A DNA stretch of 64,000 nucleotides, taken from positions 2,503,501 through 2,567,500 of the forward strand of contig NZ_CP020814.1 in the NCBI RefSeq assembly GCF_002109385.1. The letters run 5' to 3'. Made by a program: the position numbers and the translations under genes. Below are positions 5,664-21,224 of the stretch, one piece after another (position 1 is the first letter of the stretch; the number at the start of each line of letters is the position of its first letter). The DNA is from Halalkalibacter krulwichiae. GTDB taxonomy: Bacteria > Bacillota > Bacilli > Bacillales > Bacillaceae_D. Below the pieces are notes generated by a model. It was not told the DNA's origin, did no database searches, and worked only from the letters and a program-made list of their open reading frames with translations.

Positions 5664-7066
5664 CTATTTCAACTCCTGTTCAATTTCAATAAACCTGTTA
5701 AGTAAATCTGGAAATTCATCCTCTTCAACTGTGCGGAAATCAAGGGCAAATTGCTCTTGAATGATTCGACCAACCACAGCTGGATTTCCGTTTCTTAATT
5801 TATCATGTAATTGCTGTGCTTTTATTTTACTGTTTGAGATAAGCAACAGTGTAGTTTTCAGCTCTACCTCTGGCATTGTCCCGCCACCGACCTGAGAGAC
5901 ACTTTCTTTTTGGTCCGTTAGCCAAAATGGAGATAAGTTGGTTTCAAACGTCTTGATTTTCGTATTGATTTCTTCCCATGTCTGTTTAATTGCTTTTAAA
6001 GTAGGTAACGTTTTTGGAGCTTGTCCTGTTGCAAAAGCTTTTAGGGTTGCTTCAAGAGCGGCTAGTGTCATCTTATCAACCCGAAGCACACGAGCTAATT
6101 GATGCTTCTTTAAAAGATCAATCCACTTTTTCTTCCCTGCAATTATGCCTGCTTGTGGTCCCCTAATAGTTTGTCACCACTAAATGTGACTATATCAACT
6201 CCACGTTGCAAGGCTTCTGCTACGGTCGGTTCATTACCAATACCATCAAGCTTCAGATCATAAATGGCGCCACTCCCCAAATCCTCATATAGGATGAGAT
6301 CATGTTGTTTGGCTAAAGGTTCTAGTTGAGTGATTTCGACTTCTTTTGTAAAACCAATAATTTTAAAATTACTTGTATGAACCTTCATGATCATAGCTGT
6401 TTCTTCAGAAATTGCATGTTCATAATCATACAAATGTGTCTTATTTGTTGTACCTACTTCTACTAATTTTGCACCACTTTCTTCCATAATCGATGAGACA
6501 CGAAAGGAACCGCCGATTTCTACGAGTTCCCCCCTTGATACAATCACTTCTCTTTCCTTTGCGAGCGCCTTTAACACAAGGTATACTGCTGCTGCATTAT
6601 TATTGACTACCATAGCCGCTTCAGCACCAGTTGTTTCTCTAACGATTTCTTCAATAAGTTCATGTCTAGAACCACGCTGTCCTTTATCTAGATTATATTC
6701 AAGATTTGAGTAAGAGCGTGCCGTCTCCACAACTTGCCGAATCGCATCTGAGCTAAGCCTCGCTCGACCAAAGTTAGTATGCAAAACAGTTCCCGTGCCG
6801 TTAATAACACGTCTTATTTTTGTGCTAGTATATTCATTTAGACGCTCTTCTAAACTGTCGAAAATAGCAACATCCAAACCAACAACTTCTAAGTTCTCTA
6901 TATCTAACAGGTCAGCCAAGATACCTTTTCTAATATCTTGAACAGCTTCCTTTAACCAATCGGTCAGTTTTTCCTGCGAAATAGCGTGTTGTTCATGCAA
7001 GCTTATAAAACGTTTATCTTGTTGGAGCTCATGAATAGCTGGAAGCTGTCTTAAAATAGTATGCAA
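5664..7066 (-). CDS. selA: L-seryl-tRNA(Sec) selenium transferase (one-base frameshift)
   Basis: PLP enzyme that turns seryl-tRNA(Sec) into selenocysteinyl-tRNA(Sec) with selenophosphate. The PLP lysine lies in FSGDKLLG. The frame breaks right after it, where the sequence gives GGGG; a fifth G restores the expected GGPQAGIIAGKKKW and an approximately 467-residue protein of normal length. I read this as a sequence deletion. An upstream GTG at 7078 is possible, but TTG 7066 sits eight bases after AAGGGTGG and gives the typical N-terminus MHTILRQLPAIHELQ. A hairpin (7076-7096) contains that ribosome site. The thioesterase follows directly. Confidence 0.93.
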
Positions 7067-7075
7067 ATTTTGTAC

Positions 7076-7096
7076 CACCCTTCTTCAACTAGGGTG
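7076..7096 (-). promoter_or_regulatory. Hairpin over the selA ribosome-binding site
   Basis: On the transcribed strand CACCCT and AGGGTG can form a 6-bp stem with a 9-base loop. The 3' arm overlaps the AAGGGTGG ribosome site used by the TTG start, so translation of selA could be modulated. Function is inferred. Confidence 0.4.
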
Positions 7097-7181
7097 ATAA
7101 TACAATATGGACAAATTCATAAACTTCGTGAACCCTGGTCCAGATTATTCGATGACACCCTATATTTATTCACAATAATCA

Positions 7182-7400
7182 TCATTTTAATGATTTCTTT
7201 TCATCAAGAAACGTTCCATCTACTTTCTTAGAGTAAATTCTTCTGTCATTAACAGTCACGTTACAAACTCTACCACTGCTCGTATTGAGCATAACTTCCT
7301 TTATTTCTTCTCAAAAATGATCGGGATTTCGTCCGTGAAACATTCGGCCTTTGGTGCAAAGTTTCACATCGTGCAAATCGATTGAGACTTTGTACTCCAT
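7182..7400 (-). CDS. Candidate small selenoprotein with in-frame TGA upstream of selA
   Basis: A 73-codon frame starting at ATG 7400, ten bases after AAAGGAG. Codon 30 is TGA (7311-7313) and the same frame then stays open for another 42 codons to TGA 7182. The first part reads MEYKVSIDLHDVKLC, then NPDHF before the TGA; after it come EEIKEVMLNTSS and RVCNVTVNDRRIY. Both halves look like coding sequence. A promoter-like TTGCAT-17-TACAAT stands upstream. A 5-bp hairpin (TGCTC/GAGCA) begins 20 bases after the TGA, within the spacing seen for bacterial SECIS, but its AATAC loop lacks the usual early G. Sec, a TGG-to-TGA change, or a real stop remain possible. No family recognised. Confidence 0.45.
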
Positions 7401-7434
7401 CCGATTCAAACTCCTTTACTTTATTTTCACATCT

Positions 7435-7463
7435 ATTGTAGGATAATACGAGTAAGGATGCAA
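7435..7463 (-). promoter_or_regulatory. Promoter of the small TGA-containing gene / selA
   Basis: TTGCAT (7458-7463) and TACAAT (7435-7440) are spaced by 17 bases on the minus strand, 35 bases before ATG 7400. It fits a sigma-A promoter. Confidence 0.5.
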
Positions 7464-7524
7464 AAAAATTGATACGAATAGGCACACTATACACGTTGTG
7501 ATGTTTAAATAGGAGGTGTCCTCA

Positions 7525-8574
7525 TTGGACAAAAGAGAGCAAATCCGCTTAACTTCATTCTCAACAAAAGCTGGTTGAGGATGCAAAATTGGTCCTGAAG
7601 ACCTGACGCAAGTTTTGCGTCACTTACCCAAACAAACGCATGACCCTAATTTACTTGTAGGTTTAGATACATCAGATGATGCCGGTGCATATCGTCTTAC
7701 TGATGATCTTGCGATGATTCAAACAGTTGATTATTTTACCCCAGTTGTCGACGACGCCTATATGTTTGGACAAATCGCTGCAGCTAATGCCCTGAGCGAT
7801 GTATATGCAATGGGAGGAAAACCGAAGACAGTGATGAATATAGTTGGTTTCCCAATTAAAAAGCTACCTCCTGAAATCTTAGCTGACATATTACGTGGCG
7901 CAGCAGATAAGACAAAAGAAGCTGGTGCAATTATCGTCGGTGGTCATTCAATTGATGATCAAGAGCCTAAGTTTGGTTTATCTGTAACGGGTCTTGCCCA
8001 CCCTGATCGTATATTTAAAAATGTTGGAGCTAAACCTGGAGATATCTTGATTTTAACGAAACCAATTGGAGTTGGAATTTTAACAACAGGAATCAAGCGT
8101 GAAGCTGTTACATCTGAGCAAGAAAAAGCTGTAACTGAAACAATGGCTTTATTGAACAAGCAGGCAGCTGAAAAGTTAGAAGGATTGCACCCGAATGCGG
8201 TGACAGATGTAACTGGGTTTGGATTGCTAGGTCATAGTTACGAAATGGCTAAAGGCAGTGATGTAACATTTGAACTTGTTCTTGACCAAATCCCACTGCT
8301 TGAAGGTACAAGGGAACTTGCTGAAAAGGGGATTGTACCAGGTGGATCAAAAGCTAACGAGCGCTGGCTTGATGGTTGTGTTGACTACGCTGAGACAATT
8401 ACAGACGTTGAAAAAGCCATTCTTTGCGATGCGATCACATCCGGAGGCTTACTGATCAGTTTACCAGCTAATGAAGCAGAGGATTACGTCCACTCAATGA
8501 ATCAAGACGGAGCACACGCATCAATCATTGGAAAAGTAGTAACTAAACAGAACAAATCTATTAGTGTTAAGTAA
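7525..8574 (+). CDS. selD: Selenide, water dikinase (selenoprotein form)
   Basis: Makes selenophosphate from selenide and ATP, the selenium donor for SelA. Reading starts at TTG 7525 after AGGAGGTG and gives 349 residues. Codon 18 is TGA (7576-7578) in the context KAG-TGA-GCK, exactly where E. coli SelD has Cys17 in GAGCGCK, so it encodes selenocysteine. The rest matches the family: DPNLLVG, MGGKP, GGHSIDDQEP, DVTGFGLLGH and DAITSGGLL. A SECIS-like hairpin follows the TGA. An automatic call would start at an internal TTG near 7615 and lose the active-site region. Divergent from selA. Confidence 0.95.
7604..7622 (+). promoter_or_regulatory. Bacterial SECIS element of selD
   Basis: TGACGCAA and TTGCGTCA form a perfect 8-bp stem with a GTT loop. 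It starts 26 bases after the TGA and its loop begins with G, meeting the known bacterial SECIS rules on spacing, stem length and an early loop G. SelB is expected to bind it. Confidence 0.85.
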
Positions 8575-8629
8575 AATCAAAAAACACGAATCTGCATAGC
8601 TAAATAGGCATTAATTACGATAAAAAATG

Positions 8630-8670
8630 ACACCCCGTTTGTTGACTTTAACAATCGGGGTGTTTTTTTT
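8630..8670 (+). terminator. Terminator of selD
   Basis: ACACCCCG pairs with CGGGGTGT and is followed by a run of Ts. Confidence 0.85.
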
Positions 8671-8712
8671 AGGTTAAAAATTGAGGCAGCAGCAAGATAC
8701 AGACGAAGAAAA

Positions 8713-8749
8713 GGCACGAAGAACAGTTGGTTTCTGTTTACTCCGTGCC
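8713..8749 (-). terminator. Terminator after the coiled-coil membrane gene
   Basis: GGCACG pairs with CGTGCC, with further pairing inside (AACAG/CTGTT). A short T run follows on the minus strand. Confidence 0.6.
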
Positions 8750-8798
8750 CTTAATTTAAACTTTACAAATTTGATAAAGCAACCTAAAGTAGCTCCCT

Positions 8799-9527
8799 TT
8801 ACTTATTTTGAAGTGTTTTTACTAACGCTTTATATCCCGAGCGGGTTAAATTATATTCCTCATCAACGTAATTCCCTTTTAGCAAGGCTTGAACAGTTTG
8901 TTCTGAAAGCGATGAAGAGATGACCAATTGTACCTCTTTATTAAGTGATGCCATGTTTGCATGCTCTAATTTGTCTGATTCGATTGAAGCTGCAATTTCT
9001 TTCATTGGGTCCGCTTTGACGAAATACTTCTTTGTCTCGAGCACAGCTTGTTGCAACTTACCTTTAACAATCAATAAATCTTGAACGAGATCTGAGCGTT
9101 CAGACTCTTTTTGTTTAATTCGTTCACGGTAAGTTTGCTTCTCTAAGTCATTTAATTCGGCTTTCGTAAACAATTCCTCTAACATTTGAGTTCGATCTAA
9201 ATCAATCTTCTCAAGTTGTTGCTCTTTTTCTGTAACAGTCTTCTCAAAAATTTGAGTTTGCTGATCTTCAATTTTTTCTTCAACTACAAGGTTCTGCTCT
9301 TGTTGCGGTATTCCTTTTAATTGGTTGATTTTACGATTTAAATAATAAGTTGCTCCAATTAAAAACAAAACAACAAACGACCGAAAAAACACCTCACTCT
9401 GAACGACGTTGTATATCACCACAACACTTAATGCAATGCAAACAAGTAAAATTCCCTTATTTATTATTGAATTTGAATTAAATACATTTGTTATCTTCTT
9501 CCTTACCTGTTTTTGTTTTTGACGCAT
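8799..9527 (-). CDS. Membrane-anchored coiled-coil protein of unknown function
   Basis: A 242-residue protein starting at ATG 9527 behind AAAAGGAG. The N-terminus is very basic (MRQKQKQVRKK). Two hydrophobic segments follow (about residues 25-40 and 46-62), then a long Glu/Lys/Gln-rich coiled coil (about 75-170) and a compact C-terminal part ending in NLTRSGYKALVKTL. I recognise no family. It lies just downstream of the phosphonate-type transporter genes but behind their terminator, so it is probably its own unit. Its place inside the selenium locus is noted without inferring a role. Confidence 0.7.
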   Translation of the reverse strand: MRQKQKQVRKKITNVFNSNSIINKGILLVCIALSVVVIYNVVQSEVFFRSFVVLFLIGATYYLNRKINQLKGIPQQEQNLVVEEKIEDQQTQIFEKTVTEKEQQLEKIDLDRTQMLEELFTKAELNDLEKQTYRERIKQKESERSDLVQDLLIVKGKLQQAVLETKKYFVKADPMKEIAASIESDKLEHANMASLNKEVQLVISSSLSEQTVQALLKGNYVDEEYNLTRSGYKALVKTLQNK

Positions 9528-9648
9528 AGGTTTACTCCTTTTATCTGCTGACAGATTTTATGATCAAACGATATTTTATCATAAACATCCTGTGACAAAG
9601 GATCTATTTTTTGTCCCGATTTAGTTTTATTTAAGAGCATATACAAAA

Positions 9649-9680
9649 ACAAGCAATAAATCATCTGATTTATTGCTTGT
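9649..9680 (-). terminator. Terminator of the selB-GT-ABC transporter gene run
   Basis: A perfect 15-bp stem, ACAAGCAATAAATCA with TGATTTATTGCTTGT, has a 2-base centre and a TTTTTG tail on the minus strand. Confidence 0.85.
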
Positions 9681-9701
9681 CCTATGATAGTGACGGACGA
9701 T

Positions 9702-10436
9702 TTACTGGTAAATTTCAGCAAAAATACGTTCATCTATTTCCTCTGGCTTCCCATCAAAAACGACTCTTCCATCACGCAATCCAATAATTCGGGTAGCGAA
9801 TTCTTTTGCTAAATGAACATCATGAACATTTATGATCGAAAGTAGTTCTCTTTCTTCATGTATTTTTTTTAACAATCCAAAGATTCTTCTTGAGGTTGTT
9901 GGGTCTAAACTAGCAACAGGCTCATCTCCTAATAAAAGCTTCGGATCTTGTAGCAGCGCTCTTGCAATACCAACTCGCTGTTTTTGGCCACCACTTAAAG
10001 CCTCCACTCGCTTATTGGCATGATGCTCTAACCCGACTTCTTCAAGAGCCAATAGGCCGCGACTTTTTTCAGATTCAGAGAAAAGCCCAAGTAAATTTTT
10101 ATAAGCAGGCCTTCTCCCAAACGAACCGGTTAGTGTATTTTGAAAGACGGTCATTCGAGGAATTAAGTTAAAATGTTGAAAAATCATTACCATCTCTGAT
10201 CGGATTTTTCTCATTTCTCCTTCTGGTAACGTTGTAAGTTCCATCCCTTCCCACTTAACCTGTCCAGAAGTTGGCTCGTGAAGGCGATTTATTGATCGAA
10301 TAAAAGTCGATTTTCCTGCACCACTCTTTCCTAGAATACAGACAAAATCGCCTTTTTCAAGGGTGAGGGAAATATGGTCAAGAGCATTTTCACTAGATCG
10401 TGGGTATTGCACAACTAAATCTTTTATATTAAGCAT
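9702..10436 (-). CDS. Phosphonate-type (PhnC family) ABC transporter ATPase
   Basis: A 244-residue cytoplasmic ATPase that should power the adjacent permease. Walker A is GKSGAGKST (about residues 36-44), the signature is LSGGQKQR and Walker B is LLLGDEPVASLDP. The PhnC-type ending RIIGLRDGRVVFDG is present. It begins nine bases after the permease stop and is the last gene before a terminator. Close PhnC relatives import phosphonate, phosphite or other oxyanions. Because the set lies in one run with selB and a glycosyltransferase, a selenium compound is a plausible substrate, by inference only. Confidence 0.9.
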   Translation of the reverse strand: MLNIKDLVVQYPRSSENALDHISLTLEKGDFVCILGKSGAGKSTFIRSINRLHEPTSGQVKWEGMELTTLPEGEMRKIRSEMVMIFQHFNLIPRMTVFQNTLTGSFGRRPAYKNLLGLFSESEKSRGLLALEEVGLEHHANKRVEALSGGQKQRVGIARALLQDPKLLLGDEPVASLDPTTSRRIFGLLKKIHEERELLSIINVHDVHLAKEFATRIIGLRDGRVVFDGKPEEIDERIFAEIYQ

Positions 10437-10445
10437 AATTTCCCC

Positions 10446-11207
10446 CTATATGACTGTTGCCCGAATTCGTGCCCCTACAAAGTCAACGACAATAACCAAA
10501 ATCATAATTAGAATAATGTCAAGTGCAACTGCGGTATAGTAAAAGCTTTGAAAATGATTAAACAACTGTTGACCAATACCTCCACCACCAATAAATCCTA
10601 AAATTAATGAAGTACGTATTGCTACTTCAAATCGATAGAAATATTGCGACAATACGTTTGGCCAAATTTGAGGTATGATTGAGAAAATTTGTGCAACCCA
10701 TTTGGTTGCCCCAACAGATCGCATCGCTTCTTGAGGACCATGATCAGCAGATTCAATTAGCTCTGAAATTAATTTCCCTAATACACCTATATTATGAAGG
10801 ATAATCGCAAGGACAGCAGCAAAAGGGCCTAATCCAAAAGCGGAGACAAAAATTAACCCAAACACAATTTCAGGTATAGAACGGAGTGCACTTAAGCTCC
10901 CTCTAACTGTTCCATACATCGTTTTCGTACCACTGGTATTTTTCGCCGCAAGGAAACTAAGAGGTAAAGCGACAAGTAACGCAAGAAATGTCCCCAAAAA
11001 GGCCATCGCTAATGTCACGAGGCTATGATACGCCATCATCGGAAAAAGGGACCACTCAACAGGAAAAAAGCGAGTGGTCACCATATCTATTATATTTCCG
11101 ATTTGCGTAAGCTTCCTCCACTGGAAATCGGTCATATCCATACTCCACCAGAGTGCAACTAAGATGAGTAGAATATAAGCAATGTAGCGCCTACGAAACC
11201 AAACCAT
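10446..11207 (-). CDS. Phosphonate-type (PhnE family) ABC transporter permease
   Basis: A 253-residue inner-membrane permease with about six membrane segments. The region RSVGATKWVAQIFSIIPQIW is the loop that contacts the ATPase in this family. Members normally act as a dimer with a PhnC ATPase and a PhnD lipoprotein, both adjacent here. It starts nine bases after the binding-protein stop, so the genes are closely coupled. The substrate cannot be read from the sequence. Confidence 0.9.
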   Translation of the reverse strand: MVWFRRRYIAYILLILVALWWSMDMTDFQWRKLTQIGNIIDMVTTRFFPVEWSLFPMMAYHSLVTLAMAFLGTFLALLVALPLSFLAAKNTSGTKTMYGTVRGSLSALRSIPEIVFGLIFVSAFGLGPFAAVLAIILHNIGVLGKLISELIESADHGPQEAMRSVGATKWVAQIFSIIPQIWPNVLSQYFYRFEVAIRTSLILGFIGGGGIGQQLFNHFQSFYYTAVALDIILIMILVIVVDFVGARIRATVI

Positions 11208-11216
11208 ATGAGACCC

Positions 11217-12164
11217 CTATTCCAGTGTCAGCATATCGAATTCTCGAGCTGCTTCTAATACATCTGCATATTGACTATCATCAGCTTCTACAAATCGAGT
11301 TGCTCCACCAAAAATGCGAAGAATGGCTTCGTCCTCAATTTCTGCAAACGCAAGCTGCAAATCTTCAATGAGGGTATCACTTGTTTGAGCTGGAACAACC
11401 CATGGATACTGATACAATTGTTCAGATTGCCAAAGCACTTTAATATCATCTCGAAGCGTTCCATCGTTTTCTTCATCAGTCTGCATTAATGCTTCTAGAA
11501 TCGCGCTGTCAACTGCACCTGCGTCTACTATTTGATCCTGGACAAGTGTCGTTACAATATCATGAGAACCTGCAAACTGAATTTGGTTAAATTCATGCTT
11601 GTCTTCACTTTCATAATAGCCTAATTGACGCAAATGCAACCCTGGTATTAAATGTCCTGATGTTGAAGAAATACTAGCAAACGCTAAATCGACTTCTGCT
11701 CTGTCCTCAAGTAAATCATCTAAATCTTCCCACTCACTGTCCGCATGTGTAATGATGTAAGAATAGTAAAAAGGACTTCCGTCTACTTCTTGAGTAATAA
11801 TAGCCTTTGCTCCACTTTGCTCATGAGCTATTAAGTACGTAAGAGGACCTAAAAACGCTAAATCAATATGATTATAATTTATTGCTTCTACAACAGCATT
11901 GTAATTAGGGTATTGTTCAACGATAACATCACGTTCTAAACGTTCTGTTAAATGTGTTTCTAAATTATCTAACCCTTGTTGCATTTCACCCATTGACTGC
12001 GAAGGAATCACGGCAATTTTAAACTCGCCATCTTCTTGCTCAGTAACAGGCGCTTCCGTTTCCTCATCAACTGTTGGCGACTGTACAACTTCATCAGGGT
12101 CATCCGCTGCACCACAGCCACTTAATGCAACAAGCATTCCTAATGATATCAACCATTTTTTCAT
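11217..12164 (-). CDS. PhnD-like solute-binding lipoprotein
   Basis: A 315-residue lipoprotein binding the substrate outside the cell. ATG 12164 follows GGTGGAGAG. The signal MKKWLISLGMLVALSGC ends in a lipobox with the lipidated Cys near residue 17, followed by an acidic linker. The mature part has the PhnD fold pattern: AVIPSQSMGEMQQGLDNLET, then LAFLGPLTYLIA, and SISSTSGHLIPG near residue 150, the oxyanion-binding segment in the family. It lies 75 bases after the glycosyltransferase and leads the transporter genes. Phosphonate, phosphite or a selenium species could be the ligand. Confidence 0.9.
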   Translation of the reverse strand: MKKWLISLGMLVALSGCGAADDPDEVVQSPTVDEETEAPVTEQEDGEFKIAVIPSQSMGEMQQGLDNLETHLTERLERDVIVEQYPNYNAVVEAINYNHIDLAFLGPLTYLIAHEQSGAKAIITQEVDGSPFYYSYIITHADSEWEDLDDLLEDRAEVDLAFASISSTSGHLIPGLHLRQLGYYESEDKHEFNQIQFAGSHDIVTTLVQDQIVDAGAVDSAILEALMQTDEENDGTLRDDIKVLWQSEQLYQYPWVVPAQTSDTLIEDLQLAFAEIEDEAILRIFGGATRFVEADDSQYADVLEAAREFDMLTLE

Positions 12165-12239
12165 ATACTCTCCACCTTTTGCTTTCTTTTTTAAAGTAAA
12201 ATTTACCACTATTCGTTTTAAGATGTAAAGTAACTTGTC

Positions 12240-13271
12240 TTAAGATAAACAGTGCGTATACACTTCTAAATATTGTTCCATCTCTTTCTCAAGAGAATGA
12301 TGTTCTCTAACATACCTTGCAGCATGTTGACAGATGTCATTTCTTTTTTCAATCGATTTAACAATCTTCACTAACTTATGTGTAAATTCAGCTGGGTTCT
12401 CAAATAACACACCTGTCTTGAAATCTTCAATGACACTCGCGTTTCCAGCGTTATTTCTCGCAAAGACCATTTTACCAAGTGACATTGCCTCAAGGACGGC
12501 AGCTGACTGACCTTCAGAAATCGAAGTATTTAAAACATAATCAGCTTTCTCGTATATGCCAACCATTTCTTCAATAGGAATTTCCTTTAAATAATGAAAC
12601 CACTTGTGCTGTTTTTCTTTCATTAAGACATCTTTATACAGACTGTCATCAAGGGCTGGTCCAACAAGATAGAAAGCTAAATCAGGCCAGATGTTTTGCA
12701 AACTTTGCAACTCGTCCCATAAATAAAAAATATCTTTAACAGGTCGTAACCCGGCAGGCAAAAGAAATGTTGGAAAACCATCTAACTCATCTGTTTCAAC
12801 TTCACTTTTGGGTAGTTCAACACTTTGAGGTATAACGAAAATTCGATCTTGAAGCTTGTCATTCGCCTCTATAATTTTTCGCTTGCCATCGTTACTAAAT
12901 ACGGTGATTCCACAAGATTTATCAGCAACTGCATTCATCAGTTTTGCTGCTTCAGGATCCTTTAAATCTTCGTTCACATCCGTTCCACCAGACGTTAGAA
13001 TATAAGGCTTGTTAATGACTAAATGAGGAAGGTGTGTAAACCATTCTGCAAATCGTTTCAAGTGCAAAATATGATAAAGATCAGCTCTAAGGAAATGATC
13101 TTCCCACTTTTCATTCCACTCTTGTTCCTCATACGCAAAGACCCATACGGTAATACCCCAATCTTTAAGTCCTTTAACAATTCGCTTAGCAGTCGTCGCG
13201 TTCCCACGATTTTGCTCATAATAAGGAGTAAAAAACAAAATGCTAGGTTGATTAACTGAGCCAATTTTCAA
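12240..13271 (-). CDS. Glycosyltransferase resembling selenosugar synthase SenB
   Basis: A 343-residue GT-B glycosyltransferase (GT4-like). The start TTG 13271 lies inside selB, overlapping its end by 20 bases, so the two are translationally coupled. Features in order: NRGNATTAKRI (21-31), SGGTDVNED (94-102), VIPQSVELP (146-154), LPAGLRPVKD (171-180), VGPALDD (203-209) and EGQSAAVLEAMSLGKMVF (253-270) with the acidic E near the donor site. From memory, the GN-x-TA, GTD, IYQS and LR-x-VKD patterns resemble SenB, which joins selenophosphate to a UDP sugar in selenoneine synthesis. I see no SenA partner here. A generic GT4 enzyme is the alternative. Confidence 0.75.
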   Translation of the reverse strand: MKIGSVNQPSILFFTPYYEQNRGNATTAKRIVKGLKDWGITVWVFAYEEQEWNEKWEDHFLRADLYHILHLKRFAEWFTHLPHLVINKPYILTSGGTDVNEDLKDPEAAKLMNAVADKSCGITVFSNDGKRKIIEANDKLQDRIFVIPQSVELPKSEVETDELDGFPTFLLPAGLRPVKDIFYLWDELQSLQNIWPDLAFYLVGPALDDSLYKDVLMKEKQHKWFHYLKEIPIEEMVGIYEKADYVLNTSISEGQSAAVLEAMSLGKMVFARNNAGNASVIEDFKTGVLFENPAEFTHKLVKIVKSIEKRNDICQHAARYVREHHSLEKEMEQYLEVYTHCLS

Positions 13272-15153
13272 TTTCAGTCACTCTCCATTTCCGATCTTGC
13301 TCCTTACGAACCGTTAACCCTAACTGATCTAACTTTTCGAGAAACGGTACTAAATATTTTCTTGATAAACCCGTGATCTCTTTTGCTTCTTTCAATGTGA
13401 ATGTATCATTTGTTTGTTCATACAAGCTTTTGACCGCTTTAGTGAATGGGTCCGTGTGAATAGAAAGCTTTTCATCAATTTGATAAAGATACTTTTGCTG
13501 ATGAAAATAAAACACTAGTTCTTCATGCAATTCTTTCGGTATTTGTTGGTTCGCCAAATGCTCTTGTAACGCCGTTACCTTTAGTCCTTCTTCTCTAATT
13601 ATCTTTAACACTTGAGCAACACGCTTTTCCCACTTCGCTGGTGGATGCGGAAAGTGTCTAGAACTCGCAACAAATGGACCATAAACAACCAAGTTACGAT
13701 TTGTCTCTAGTTCCAATATCCATTCAACAAGACGTTTTGGATAAGTCGGTTCATATGTTTGAATAATCTCGGCTTTCTTCATTCCTTGACGAAGTGGAAA
13801 TTTAGCATGATAACGCTCTAAATCAGCTTGAATGAACTCTTTAAGTGACTCCAAAACCTGTTCACTAGTAACTTCACCAGAAGGCAATGTTATAAACTTA
13901 TCCCGCTCATTTAATAGGTGGACTAATTCCTCTTCTGAGAGATTAATTTCTTTACTTAAAGCTTTCACTGTTATCATTTTCTTATCCGTTATAAGCTGGA
14001 AAACTCTTTCTTCTGGGGTTGCAACCATTTTTTCTTTGAGATTTGAAACCGTCTCTTGTCCAAATCGATATTTCTTTCCATTAGGATCAATAACGAAGCC
14101 CCCACCTATTGTTTCGGTTGGAGTTGGACGTCTAATAATAAAACGATCTCCACGTCTTGTAACAACCGGTTCGTTTAAGCGGAGCTGGCAAACGACTTCT
14201 ACATTTCCATCTACCAATTCATTTCGATCAAAGAAAACAATTTTCCCATATACTTCCGAGGTCCCAATATGTAATTTAACTGCGCCTCGCTGCTTAATAT
14301 CATAACGAAGCTTAGACACAGTAGTAAGAGCTACATCAATCGTCTGTGTTGTTTCATAGAATCCACTAGCAACCAGGACATCTCCCCGCTTGATTTCCTC
14401 TTTCGAAACACCGCCAACATTGATAGCAACCCGCTGACCAGCGCGTCCTGATTCACGAGGTTGATGATGCACTTGTAACTGTCTAGCTCTGACCCGAATT
14501 TTTTGCGGCAATAGCTCAAGTGTTGCACCTTCATTCACTGTACCTTCATAGACCGTCCCGCGTACAATAGTACCTTGTCCATGTACAGTAAATACTTGAT
14601 CTATTGGCAGTCGGAAAGCGCCGCTAGCATCACGGCTCGCACGACCTTCTAACTCTTTTATAATTCCTTTTTTAAGATCCTCGATCCCTATTTGCTTGAG
14701 ACTATCTACAAAGAAAAGTGGGCTTTCTTCTAAAAAAGTCCCCTCAACACTTTCTCTAATATCGAGCTCAACTAACTCCTGCATTTCTTTATCAATACGA
14801 TCTATTTTAGTTACGACAATAAGACCATTCTCAATTCCTAATAGTCGAAGAATATCCATATGCTCACGCGTCTGCGGCATAACTCCTTCATCACCAGCCA
14901 CAACTAACATTACTAAGTCAATACCCGCGACACCAGCAATCATTTGCCGAATAAAACGCTCATGACCGGGAACATCAATTAATGAAACTTCCATATCCTC
15001 ATTTAACTTTAACGGTGCATAGCCAAGCTCAATCGAAATATTCCTCTCTTTCTCTTCCTTTAATCGGTCTGTATCGATATTTGTTAACACCTTTGTTAAA
15101 GTTGTTTTGCCATGGTCTATATGGCCTGCCATCCCAATTGTATAATGATTCAT
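13252..15153 (-). CDS. selB: Selenocysteine-specific elongation factor
   Basis: GTPase that brings selenocysteinyl-tRNA to UGA codons with a SECIS. The N-terminus has G1 [23 protein letters not shown] (G3) and VVTKIDRID (G4), then beta-barrel domains. The C-terminal third has the repeated winged-helix domains that bind the SECIS, ending [20 protein letters not shown]. At 633 residues it has normal length. I chose ATG 15153, but a TTG or GTG 3-6 bases upstream is also possible. It heads a run with a glycosyltransferase and an ABC importer and has a good promoter 40-70 bases upstream. Confidence 0.96.
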
Positions 15154-15194
15154 CACCAATTTTCCCTTCTATTCACCATTAATCACATTGTTTT

Positions 15195-17190: not shown

Positions 17191-18848
17191 CTATTTATTC
17201 ATTGGGATGACAATCCCTTTCTCTTTTGCGACCTTCTGCGCGAGCTCATAACCAGCGTCTGCATGACGAATGACCCCCATCCCTGGATCTGTAGTCAGGA
17301 CACGTTCTAACCTTTCTTCTGCTAAATCTGTACCATCTGCAACAACAACCATCCCTGCATGTAGCGAATAACCCATACCAACACCCCCCCGTGGTGAACA
17401 GAAACCCAACTTGCACCAGCGGATGTATTAACTAAAGCATTTAGGATCGCCCAATCTCCTACTGCATCACTCCCATCTAGCATCGCCTCTGTCTCACGAT
17501 TTGGTGAAGCAACGGAACCACAATCCAAATGATCACGTCCAATAACGATCGGTGCCTTTAACTCCCCTTTTTTGACAAGCTCGTTGATCGCCATCCCCAT
17601 TTTCTTTCGCTCACCATAGCCTAACCAGCAAATTCGTGCTGGCAAACCTTGAAACGACACTTTCTCTTGTGCCATTTCAATCCAGCGAAGGAGCGCTTTG
17701 TTTTCAGGAAATAGCTCTTTAATTAATTGATCAGTACGATAGATGTCTTCTGGATCACCCGATAAGGCTACCCAACGAAAAGGTCCTTTTCCTTCACAAA
17801 ACAATGGACGAATATAAGCTGGGACAAAACCTGGGAAAGAAAATGCATCTTTTACTCCCTCGTCTTTGGCAACTTGACGAATGTTATTACCGTAATCGAA
17901 TACAATTGAGCCTTTTCTTTGTAAAATCAGCATCGCTTCTACATGCTTTTTCATGCTTTGACATGATAGTTGCACATATCGATTTGGATCATCTTCCCGA
18001 AGTTTGCCTGCCTCTTTTAAAGAGAAACCCTCAGGTACGTATCCGTTCAGAGGATCATGCGCACTCGTTTGATCTGTTACAATATCAATATGAACTCCAC
18101 GGGCAATTATTTCATGATAAATAGCTGCAGCATTGCCAACTAAACCAATAGATAATGACTCCCCTTTCACCCTTGCACCTTGTGCCCACGCTAACGCATC
18201 ATCTAGAGAGTCTGTAATTCGGTCACAGTATTTTGTGTCAATTCGCTTCTCAATTCGCTCACGGTCGACATCAACGGCAATCACAACACCGCCGTTCATT
18301 GTGACTGCTAGTGGTTGAGCGCCGCCCATTCCCCCAAGGCCTGCCGTAAGTGTCAAAGTTCCAGCTAGACTATTACCAAAGTGCTGTCGAGCAATCTCAG
18401 CAAATGTTTCATAGGTTCCTTGTAAGATGCCTTGTGTTCCAATGTAGATCCAACTTCCTGCTGTCATCTGCCCATACATCATTAGTCCTTCTTTGTCGAG
18501 CTTATTAAAATGTTCCCAATTTGCCCACTTTGGGACTAAAACTGAATTAGATAACAAAACGCGTGGTACATGACGATGTGTCTTAAACATACCAACTGGT
18601 TTTCCTGATTGGATGAGCAATGTTTCATCCGCTTCTAATTGCTTTAAAGCTTTAACAATCGCATCAAATGATTCCCAATTTCTCGCTGCCTTTCCAATTC
18701 CACCATAAACGATTAAATCTTCTGGTTTTTCAGCGACCTCAGGATCAAGATTATTGCAGAGCATCCTTAGAACCGCTTCTTGCTCCCAACCTTTGCATTC
18801 TTTTTCTGTTCCTTTTTTTGCTTGAATCATGCTTTTATTAAACTTCAT
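17191..18848 (-). CDS. hutU: Urocanate hydratase (one-base frameshift)
   Basis: Second step of histidine breakdown, hydrating urocanate to imidazolonepropionate with tightly bound NAD. Family sequences are clear: [19 protein letters not shown], the glycine-rich [14 protein letters not shown] and the C-terminal [15 protein letters not shown]. The frame breaks in a run of seven Gs (17384-17390 on the plus strand); eight Gs give the expected [12 protein letters not shown] and a 552-residue enzyme of normal length. I treat it as intact with a sequence deletion. It lies between hutH and hutI. Confidence 0.94.
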
Positions 18849-21127: not shown

Positions 21128-21224
21128 GGGGCTGGCTGCGACACTGGTGTTCGTCATGGTCTTCAAAACCACTCGGGAGGCGCGTGCCGTCTCCGGTAGG
21201 TTCGATTCCTACACAGTCCCGCCA
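21128..21224 (+). tRNA. selC: tRNA-Sec (anticodon UCA)
   Basis: A 97-base tRNA including the encoded CCA. The anticodon loop CTTCAAA between TGGT and ACCA gives UCA, which reads UGA. A long variable arm (GGAGGCG with the complementary CGTCTCC) and the T arm GTAGG-TTCGATT-CCTAC are clear. The acceptor pairs GGGGCTG with CAGTCCC, with discriminator G. Long variable arm plus UCA identify selenocysteine tRNA. It has its own promoter, about 6 kb from selB. Confidence 0.95.

Follow-up and report, generated by a model that had tools for sequence, protein, structure and literature searches.

The described systems closest to the locus studied here are SenB, the selenosugar synthase of selenoneine biosynthesis (PDB 8JJN, 8K5U), the glycosyltransferase–deacetylase pairs BshA/BshB and MshA/MshB, and the phosphite and phosphonate importers of the PtxB/PhnD type. 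In bacillithiol and mycothiol synthesis, an N-acetylhexosaminide is made and then deacetylated. The locus is situated in a 64,000-nucleotide stretch of the Halalkalibacter krulwichiae genome (hereafter the window; bases 2503501-2567500 of the 4.61-Mb single-contig genome, G000), where selB, a gene for a family 4 glycosyltransferase (GT4) and the genes for a PhnD/PhnE/PhnC-type importer form a block near selD and selA. Within Bacillales, linkage and, with greater weight, co-occurrence in genomes where the genes are unlinked tie the glycosyltransferase and the importer strongly to selenium use, as the original prediction had proposed. There is an even chance, in our estimate, that the module combines selenium supply with a selenium-sugar pathway attached to selenocysteine synthesis.

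As far as the excerpted part of the SenB study goes (PMC10891094), the preferred donor of SenB is UDP-N-acetylglucosamine (UDP-GlcNAc), residues N20, T23, K158, E231 and E239 have roles in its sugar and phosphate sites, and SenB-like genes are found mainly in beta-proteobacteria. The window glycosyltransferase has the GT-B fold, the site residues and the SelD (SenC) partner in common with SenB, but differs from it in having a deacetylase partner, a tie to selenocysteine decoding and a Bacillales host. It differs from BshA/BshB and MshA/MshB in its linkage to selenium genes, and the Bacillales deacetylase is of the NodB type (PF01522) rather than the PIG-L type. The selenium candidates LysR_Se, YedE, YedF and DUF3343 were also found by the logic of gene company, and neither the glycosyltransferase–selB pair nor the window importer is among the candidates noted from the part of that source consulted (PMC5322559). 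No paper on this module was found in the open-access literature, to which this statement is limited.

Gene Block and Its Linkage to Selenium Genes in Bacillales

The selB–glycosyltransferase–importer block near selD and selA is confirmed as real (Table 1). It had been described as a single 9.5-kb selenium block ended by one strong terminator. The overlap of the glycosyltransferase start with the selB end (20 bases, 13252-13271), the importer and the nearness of selA and selD all agree with that description. However, selD is on the plus strand, selA is separate, and the probable terminator is shared only by selB, the glycosyltransferase gene, phnD, phnE and phnC, the only genes running toward the hairpin after phnC. 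This hairpin (9650-9679, minus strand) is A+T-rich, with about 13 pairs followed by T5 as judged by eye, and is not listed by a terminator scan based on G+C. The window selB is the only match in the genome above the selB family cut-off, and the selenocysteine-decoding set of the window is complete, with selA (frameshifted), selB, selD and tRNA-Sec. The closest named relatives of the glycosyltransferase come from Alkalihalobacillus and Halalkalibacter, and two homologues (P0004 and P0009) align with the same TTG start.

When GTDB species genomes were scanned with 30 aligned relatives, 70 loci emerged; 55 of them (L008-L062) belong to Bacillales by title, some on contigs that end early. In 53 of these 55 loci, selB is immediately followed by the glycosyltransferase gene in the same orientation, a recurrence that makes the arrangement more than chance. 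Clustering of the 55 loci placed the binding protein and PhnE in 44 loci each, a PhnC-like ATPase in 43, selA in 46 and selD in 50, and a LysR-type regulator, the type proposed as LysR_Se, stands within the block in 14. The exceptions are Mesobacillus harenae (L030) and Bacillus sp. EB01 (L058), where the gene lies elsewhere; both genomes carry selB and selD.

Co-occurrence was assessed in 199 whole genomes sampled evenly from Bacillales, with a threshold for the glycosyltransferase of at least 200 bits, chosen after the gap in scores (203 to 102) had been seen. The glycosyltransferase is present in 51 genomes, all of which carry selB, against a background of 96/199 (p 5e-21). Related genomes are not independent, so genus-level counts are given as well: selB occurs in 27/27 genera bearing the glycosyltransferase (p 1e-11). 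In the 34 high-scoring genomes, the gene immediately adjoins selB on the same strand without exception. In the remaining 17 it does not, yet selB is present in all of them, and the association is therefore not dependent on linkage; in 15 of the 17 the gene lies on another contig or 46-70 kb from selB, in G053 it is 5.5 kb away, and in G176 it is divergent from selB. In 10 of the 17, the glycosyltransferase gene heads an operon-like run followed by selD and the genes for the binding protein, PhnE and PhnC, and in nine of these ten genomes no other selD was found. All 96 selB-bearing genomes have selD. A further 18 genomes have selD and no selB, and since none of them has the glycosyltransferase, the enzyme tracks selenocysteine decoding rather than SelD alone.

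A simple explanation for the linkage would be operon drift, with an ordinary GT4 enzyme of the cell surface brought along. GT4 is a very large family, and Pfam assigns the window protein general glycosyl-transferase group 1 domains only. This explanation is nevertheless very unlikely, given the presence of selB in 51/51 genomes, including the 17 where the gene does not adjoin selB on one strand, and the conserved deacetylase partner described below. The outcome that had been named as refuting the proposal, a grouping of the relatives with general GT4 enzymes from genomes without selenium use, was not seen within Bacillales.

Deacetylase Partner of the Glycosyltransferase

The partner, which the original prediction had not recognised, is a NodB-type deacetylase (PF01522) of about 200 residues with no signal peptide visible by eye. 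The DDGP and H-x3-H motifs, which we take to be the deacetylase motifs, are intact in 14/14 aligned sequences. These 14 copies served as the query for the genome search, with a threshold of at least 157 bits chosen after the gap was seen (the next score is 148). The deacetylase was found in 43/51 genomes with the glycosyltransferase and in 0/148 without it (p 7e-36); the match in G075, at 157 bits, is partial, and without it the counts are 42/51 and 0/148. Among selB-bearing genomes, the figures are 43/51 with the glycosyltransferase and 0/45 without (p 2e-19).

The deacetylase gene comes directly after nine of the ten runs headed by the glycosyltransferase and selD; the remaining run (L145) has it some 4 kb beyond. 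The glycosyltransferase adjoins the same deacetylase in four more of the 17 unlinked genomes. Of the 26 selB-adjacent genomes that have the deacetylase, 18 carry it on a different contig from the glycosyltransferase and 8 at a distance of 45 kb or more. The copy in the window genome (G000:C1:2321873-2322460) is outside the window, about 193 kb from the glycosyltransferase. The neighbours of the deacetylase varied in the 20 stretches inspected. A second selD adjoins the deacetylase in G103 and lies 1.7 kb from it in G158, followed there by a NifS-like desulfurase; this second SelD (L178:5707-6654 and L180) is about 42-43% identical to the window SelD and has a TGA. In three loci of one genus (L152, L153, L154), the glycosyltransferase adjoins a flavin reductase-like gene in place of the deacetylase, and a divergent deacetylase copy (181-200 bits) is located elsewhere in the same genomes.

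Deacetylases of other families accompany more distant relatives of the glycosyltransferase. A PIG-L/BshB1-like deacetylase stands beside the relative in 9 of 17 loci from other Bacillota, and PF02585 was confirmed for three of these. In L065 and L068, the neighbour is YdjC (PF04794). The nine directly paired loci (L256, L257, L258, L259, L261, L262, L264, L265 and L266) represent an unnamed BshA/BshB-like pair. The gene beside the relative in L268-L271 resembles a deacetylase weakly at most, scoring 24.6 bits in L268 and giving no match in L270. That unrelated de-N-acetylases recur as partners argues for a glycosyltransferase product that would be an N-acetylhexosaminide and would later be deacetylated.

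The deacetylase also bears on the idea that the glycosyltransferase modifies a macromolecule of selenocysteine decoding, such as tRNA-Sec, SelB or a selenoprotein. The tight selB linkage and the restriction of the enzyme to selenocysteine-decoding genomes in Bacillales would fit this idea. Against it, the deacetylase partner suggests a small acceptor, as do the nearest folds, which include GT4 enzymes acting on small molecules (BshA, SenB and MshA), and relatives of the glycosyltransferase occur where no selenium link is visible. We regard modification of a macromolecule as highly improbable.

Glycosyltransferase Family Beyond Bacillales

The selenium link is demonstrated for one order, Bacillales. 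As for the company kept by the relatives, the expectation that they follow selenium genes was borne out in the 51 Bacillales genomes, but the wider family is not shown to do so outside that order. Of 97 genomes from the Geobacter order, 69 have the wider family, and no association with selB was found among these 97: selB is present in 63/69 genomes with the family and in 25/28 without it (p 0.71). Of the six Geobacter-order genomes that have the family and no selB, four have selD and two have neither. Twelve genomes behind the scanned loci were also inspected, namely those of the two Bacillales exceptions and ten that range from Geobacter to Amycolatopsis. As raw counts with no background rate, nine of them have selB and selD, and three small ones (1.1-1.2 Mb) have neither.

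Among 398 Bacillota genomes, the family occurs in 18, namely the window genome and 17 outside Bacillales. No selA, selB or selD was found in the stretches of 3.5-18.5 kb around the relative in those 17. A gene for the selenium metabolism protein YedF (TIGR03527, 211.5 bits, cut-off 110) is located 0.6 kb from the glycosyltransferase of one glycosyltransferase/PIG-L pair (L266:2836-5972). The whole family may make several glucosamine-based products, with the Bacillales branch tied to selenium.

Comparison with SenB and BshA

The best-scoring named family for the window glycosyltransferase is the GPMC family 4 glycosyltransferase of Geobacter and Pelobacter (NF038229), although its cut-off of 400 is not reached (239.6 bits). 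The GPMC neighbours, an MBL-fold protein (NF038231) and TIGR04442, were not found in the window or in the 55 Bacillales loci (for the MBL-fold protein, by tblastn at E 1e-5). In a Geobacter GPMC cluster (L063:7129-9915), the glycosyltransferase is beside TIGR04442 and an MBL-fold enzyme that also matches PhnP. Among the named families, SenB comes second for the window protein and for all 14 relatives scanned, once tied, and the BshA model (TIGR03999) gives 41.7 bits, below its cut-off of 273.7.

Residues N20, T23, H58, D86, Q131, R155, K158, E231 and E239 of SenB are retained in 66-69 of 69 relatives of the glycosyltransferase. Their equivalents in the window protein, mapped through the HMMER alignment, are N24, T27, H70, D98, Q149, R176, K179, E253 and E261. 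As a control, 14 other GT4 enzymes from Bacillales were added to the fixed alignment. None of them has the equivalents of N20, T23 and Q131; three of the controls show gaps in the columns of N24, T27 and Q149, and a fourth has a gap at T27. Many of the controls also share K179 (9/14), E253 (13/14) and E261 (14/14).

The original prediction had seen a SenB-like enzyme that may make a selenosugar, and the conserved sugar-site residues support this part of it. Several results weigh against a SenB-type activity. The NCBIfam SenB model (TIGR04348, cut-off 300) gives 66.3 bits for the window protein and 65-97 for its relatives. The EGGAHV motif of SenB is missing, with EGQSAAV in the window and S, A, T, N or I at the H235 position across the relatives. 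The predicted fold is equally near BshA and SenB, with 18-21% identity to SenB in the structural alignment. The lack of a selB association in the Geobacter order and the presence of the wider family where no selenium link is seen point in the same direction. In addition, the association with selenocysteine decoding rather than with SelD alone counts against the simple form of the proposal, namely that anything with SelD makes a selenosugar.

The main rival is a thiol pathway serving selenium metabolism. Here, a BshA-like enzyme would place N-acetylglucosamine (GlcNAc) on a carbon acceptor and the deacetylase would unmask the glucosamine, with no selenium in the product; the resulting thiol cofactor would handle selenium by reducing selenite, carrying selenide or reducing selenoproteins. 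The nearness of the fold to BshA, the deacetylase partner (BshB1-like in other Bacillota), the presence of the wider family in settings with no visible selenium link and the co-occurrence with selenocysteine decoding would all suit such a pathway. Other observations are at odds with it: in 10 genomes the glycosyltransferase and selD share an operon-like run, the deacetylase adjoins or is near a second selD in two, the SenB-type N20, T23 and Q131 are absent both from the 14 control enzymes and, by eye, from BshA, and SenB ranks second among the named families. A thiol pathway of this kind is rather unlikely in our view. A glucosamine selenosugar as the product of the glycosyltransferase and the deacetylase is plausible, with the chances about even, judging from residues and gene partners.

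Substrate-Binding Protein and Importer

The binding protein has a lipoprotein-type N-terminus (by eye) and matches TIGR01098 at 163.7 bits (cut-off 112). It remains below the cut-offs of the PhnD model TIGR03431 (143.2 bits, cut-off 261.1) and of the putative selenate-binding family TIGR04553 (129.3 bits, cut-off 250), and all 13 members of its sequence set A4 match the TIGR04553 model at E 1e-20 or better. The nearest solved structures are PtxB-type phosphite binders (172 bits). The importer thus has its family, an STSG motif and the PhnE/PhnC partners in common with the PtxB/PhnD phosphite and phosphonate importers and with TIGR04553, but, unlike them, its binding-protein family is confined to selD-bearing genomes in Bacillales. 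With a threshold of at least 405 bits, chosen after the gap was seen (the next score is 172), the binding protein was found in 51/199 Bacillales genomes, and selD is present in all 51 (p 1e-15). Three of these genomes (G137, G162 and G188) have selD and no selB, and in their loci (L199, L200 and L201) the importer has no adjoining sel genes. In G162, selD is beside mnmH, the tRNA selenouridine synthase gene, and the importer is about 27 kb away with no sel gene beside it. Because the binding protein also occurs in selD-bearing genomes devoid of selB, the importer follows general selenium use, and the glycosyltransferase follows selenocysteine use.

An ordinary phosphite or phosphonate importer could sit in a selenium block by chance, and the matches to the TIGR01098, PhnE and PhnC models, as well as PtxB being the nearest solved structure, are what such an importer would show. 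The score under the PhnD cut-off and the complete co-occurrence with selD, which extends to genomes where the importer is unlinked from sel genes or selB is absent, speak against this, and we consider it quite unlikely. Selenite and phosphite are both pyramidal oxyanions. From its family and distribution, the window importer is likely a selenium importer.

The authors of a 2024 Methanococcus paper knew of no identified transporter specific for selenium (PMC11097638), and a 2026 review describes prokaryotes as lacking an identified specific high-affinity selenium transport system (PMC13188914); both statements are taken from portions of these sources. A binding-protein family restricted to selD-bearing Bacillales and partly unlinked from selenium genes is a directly testable candidate for a selenium transporter.

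Proposed Pathway

In the proposed pathway, the lipoprotein, PhnE and PhnC would form a PtxB-like ATP-binding cassette (ABC) importer of a pyramidal, selenite-like selenium oxyanion or possibly of another selenium compound. SelD, itself a selenoprotein, would convert intracellular selenide to selenophosphate. The glycosyltransferase may then move GlcNAc from UDP-GlcNAc onto the selenium of selenophosphate in the manner of SenB, giving 1-seleno-GlcNAc. The NodB-type deacetylase would take the part that BshB has in the BshA/BshB pair and strip the acetyl group, giving 1-seleno-glucosamine or a product derived from it. Since, among Bacillales, the glycosyltransferase and the deacetylase occur only in selenocysteine-decoding genomes, this product probably serves the selenocysteine branch, where it could buffer selenium or act as a reducing selenol. 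The analysis shows the gene identities, the linkage and the co-occurrence, whereas the substrate of the importer, selenium as the acceptor, the deacetylation and the role of the product are inferred.

A broader proposal, which we hold with somewhat less than even confidence, is that Bacillales with selenocysteine produce a selenol of low molecular weight that is so far undescribed. Its precursor, 1-seleno-GlcNAc, would come from SelD and the SenB-like glycosyltransferase, and a cytosolic NodB-type deacetylase would turn it into seleno-glucosamine, possibly extended as in bacillithiol; the selenol would buffer selenium for the selenocysteine machinery or reduce it, and would be fed by the PtxB-like selenium importer. 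The pairing with NodB, PIG-L or YdjC deacetylases would then mark a wider class of glucosamine-based redox cofactors. If correct, the glycosyltransferase and the deacetylase add a selenometabolite pathway, tied to selenocysteine use, to those of selenoneine and ovoselenol. Both the importer and the glycosyltransferase/deacetylase proposals can be tested by single-gene work in non-pathogenic alkaliphilic bacilli.

Features of the Locus

Table 1. Features of the selenium gene block and related genes in the window.
Feature	Position	Strand	Evidence
selB, selenocysteine-specific elongation factor	13252..15159	-	TIGR00475, 355 bits (cut-off 242)
GT4 glycosyltransferase	12240..13271	-	TTG start; NF038229 239.6 bits, TIGR04348 66.3 bits
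PhnD/PtxB-type substrate-binding lipoprotein of ABC importer	11217..12164 (start 12209 or 12164)	-	TIGR01098 above cut-off
PhnE-type permease	10446..11207	-	TIGR01097, 256.1 bits (cut-off 216.7)
PhnC-type ATPase	9702..10436	-	TIGR02315, 304.1 bits (cut-off 266.1)
Hairpin and T run 3' of phnC, probable terminator	9645..9679	-	by eye
selD, selenophosphate synthetase, selenoprotein	7525..8574	+	TIGR00476 above cut-off; UGA 7576-7578
Selenocysteine insertion sequence (SECIS)-like hairpin after selD UGA	7570..7640	+	RNA fold -22.1 kcal/mol, z -2.8
selA, frameshifted in assembly	5664..7078 (pieces 7078-6143, 6089-5664)	-	TIGR00474, both pieces
tRNA-Sec (UCA)	21128..21224	+	ARAGORN; Rfam RF01852 57.7 bits

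The selenocysteine codon of selD had also gone unrecognised in the original prediction. The gene begins with TTG at 7525 on the plus strand, and the in-frame UGA is codon 18 (AG-U-GCK), so the first start of the open reading frame as listed excludes the selenocysteine residue. The genome search recovers the same selD with one TGA, and the full reading uses this TGA as selenocysteine. Between phnC and selD, a gene at 8799-9527 matches neither NCBIfam nor Pfam; 6/55 loci have a gene like it (cluster 19), likewise just before selD. Between selA and selD, a 71-residue frame with an in-frame TGA (7188-7400, minus strand) resembles the end of SelW/Rdx by eye, has no NCBIfam match and may be a relic or nothing.

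The break in selA is at a G run (6089-6150), and the two pieces cover positions 1-292 and 316-452 of the 455 in TIGR00474. The urocanase-like gene hutU (17322-18848) has its end frameshifted, also at a G run. As hutU is broken likewise, the break in selA is probably an assembly error, and this genome is likely to contain such errors at homopolymers.

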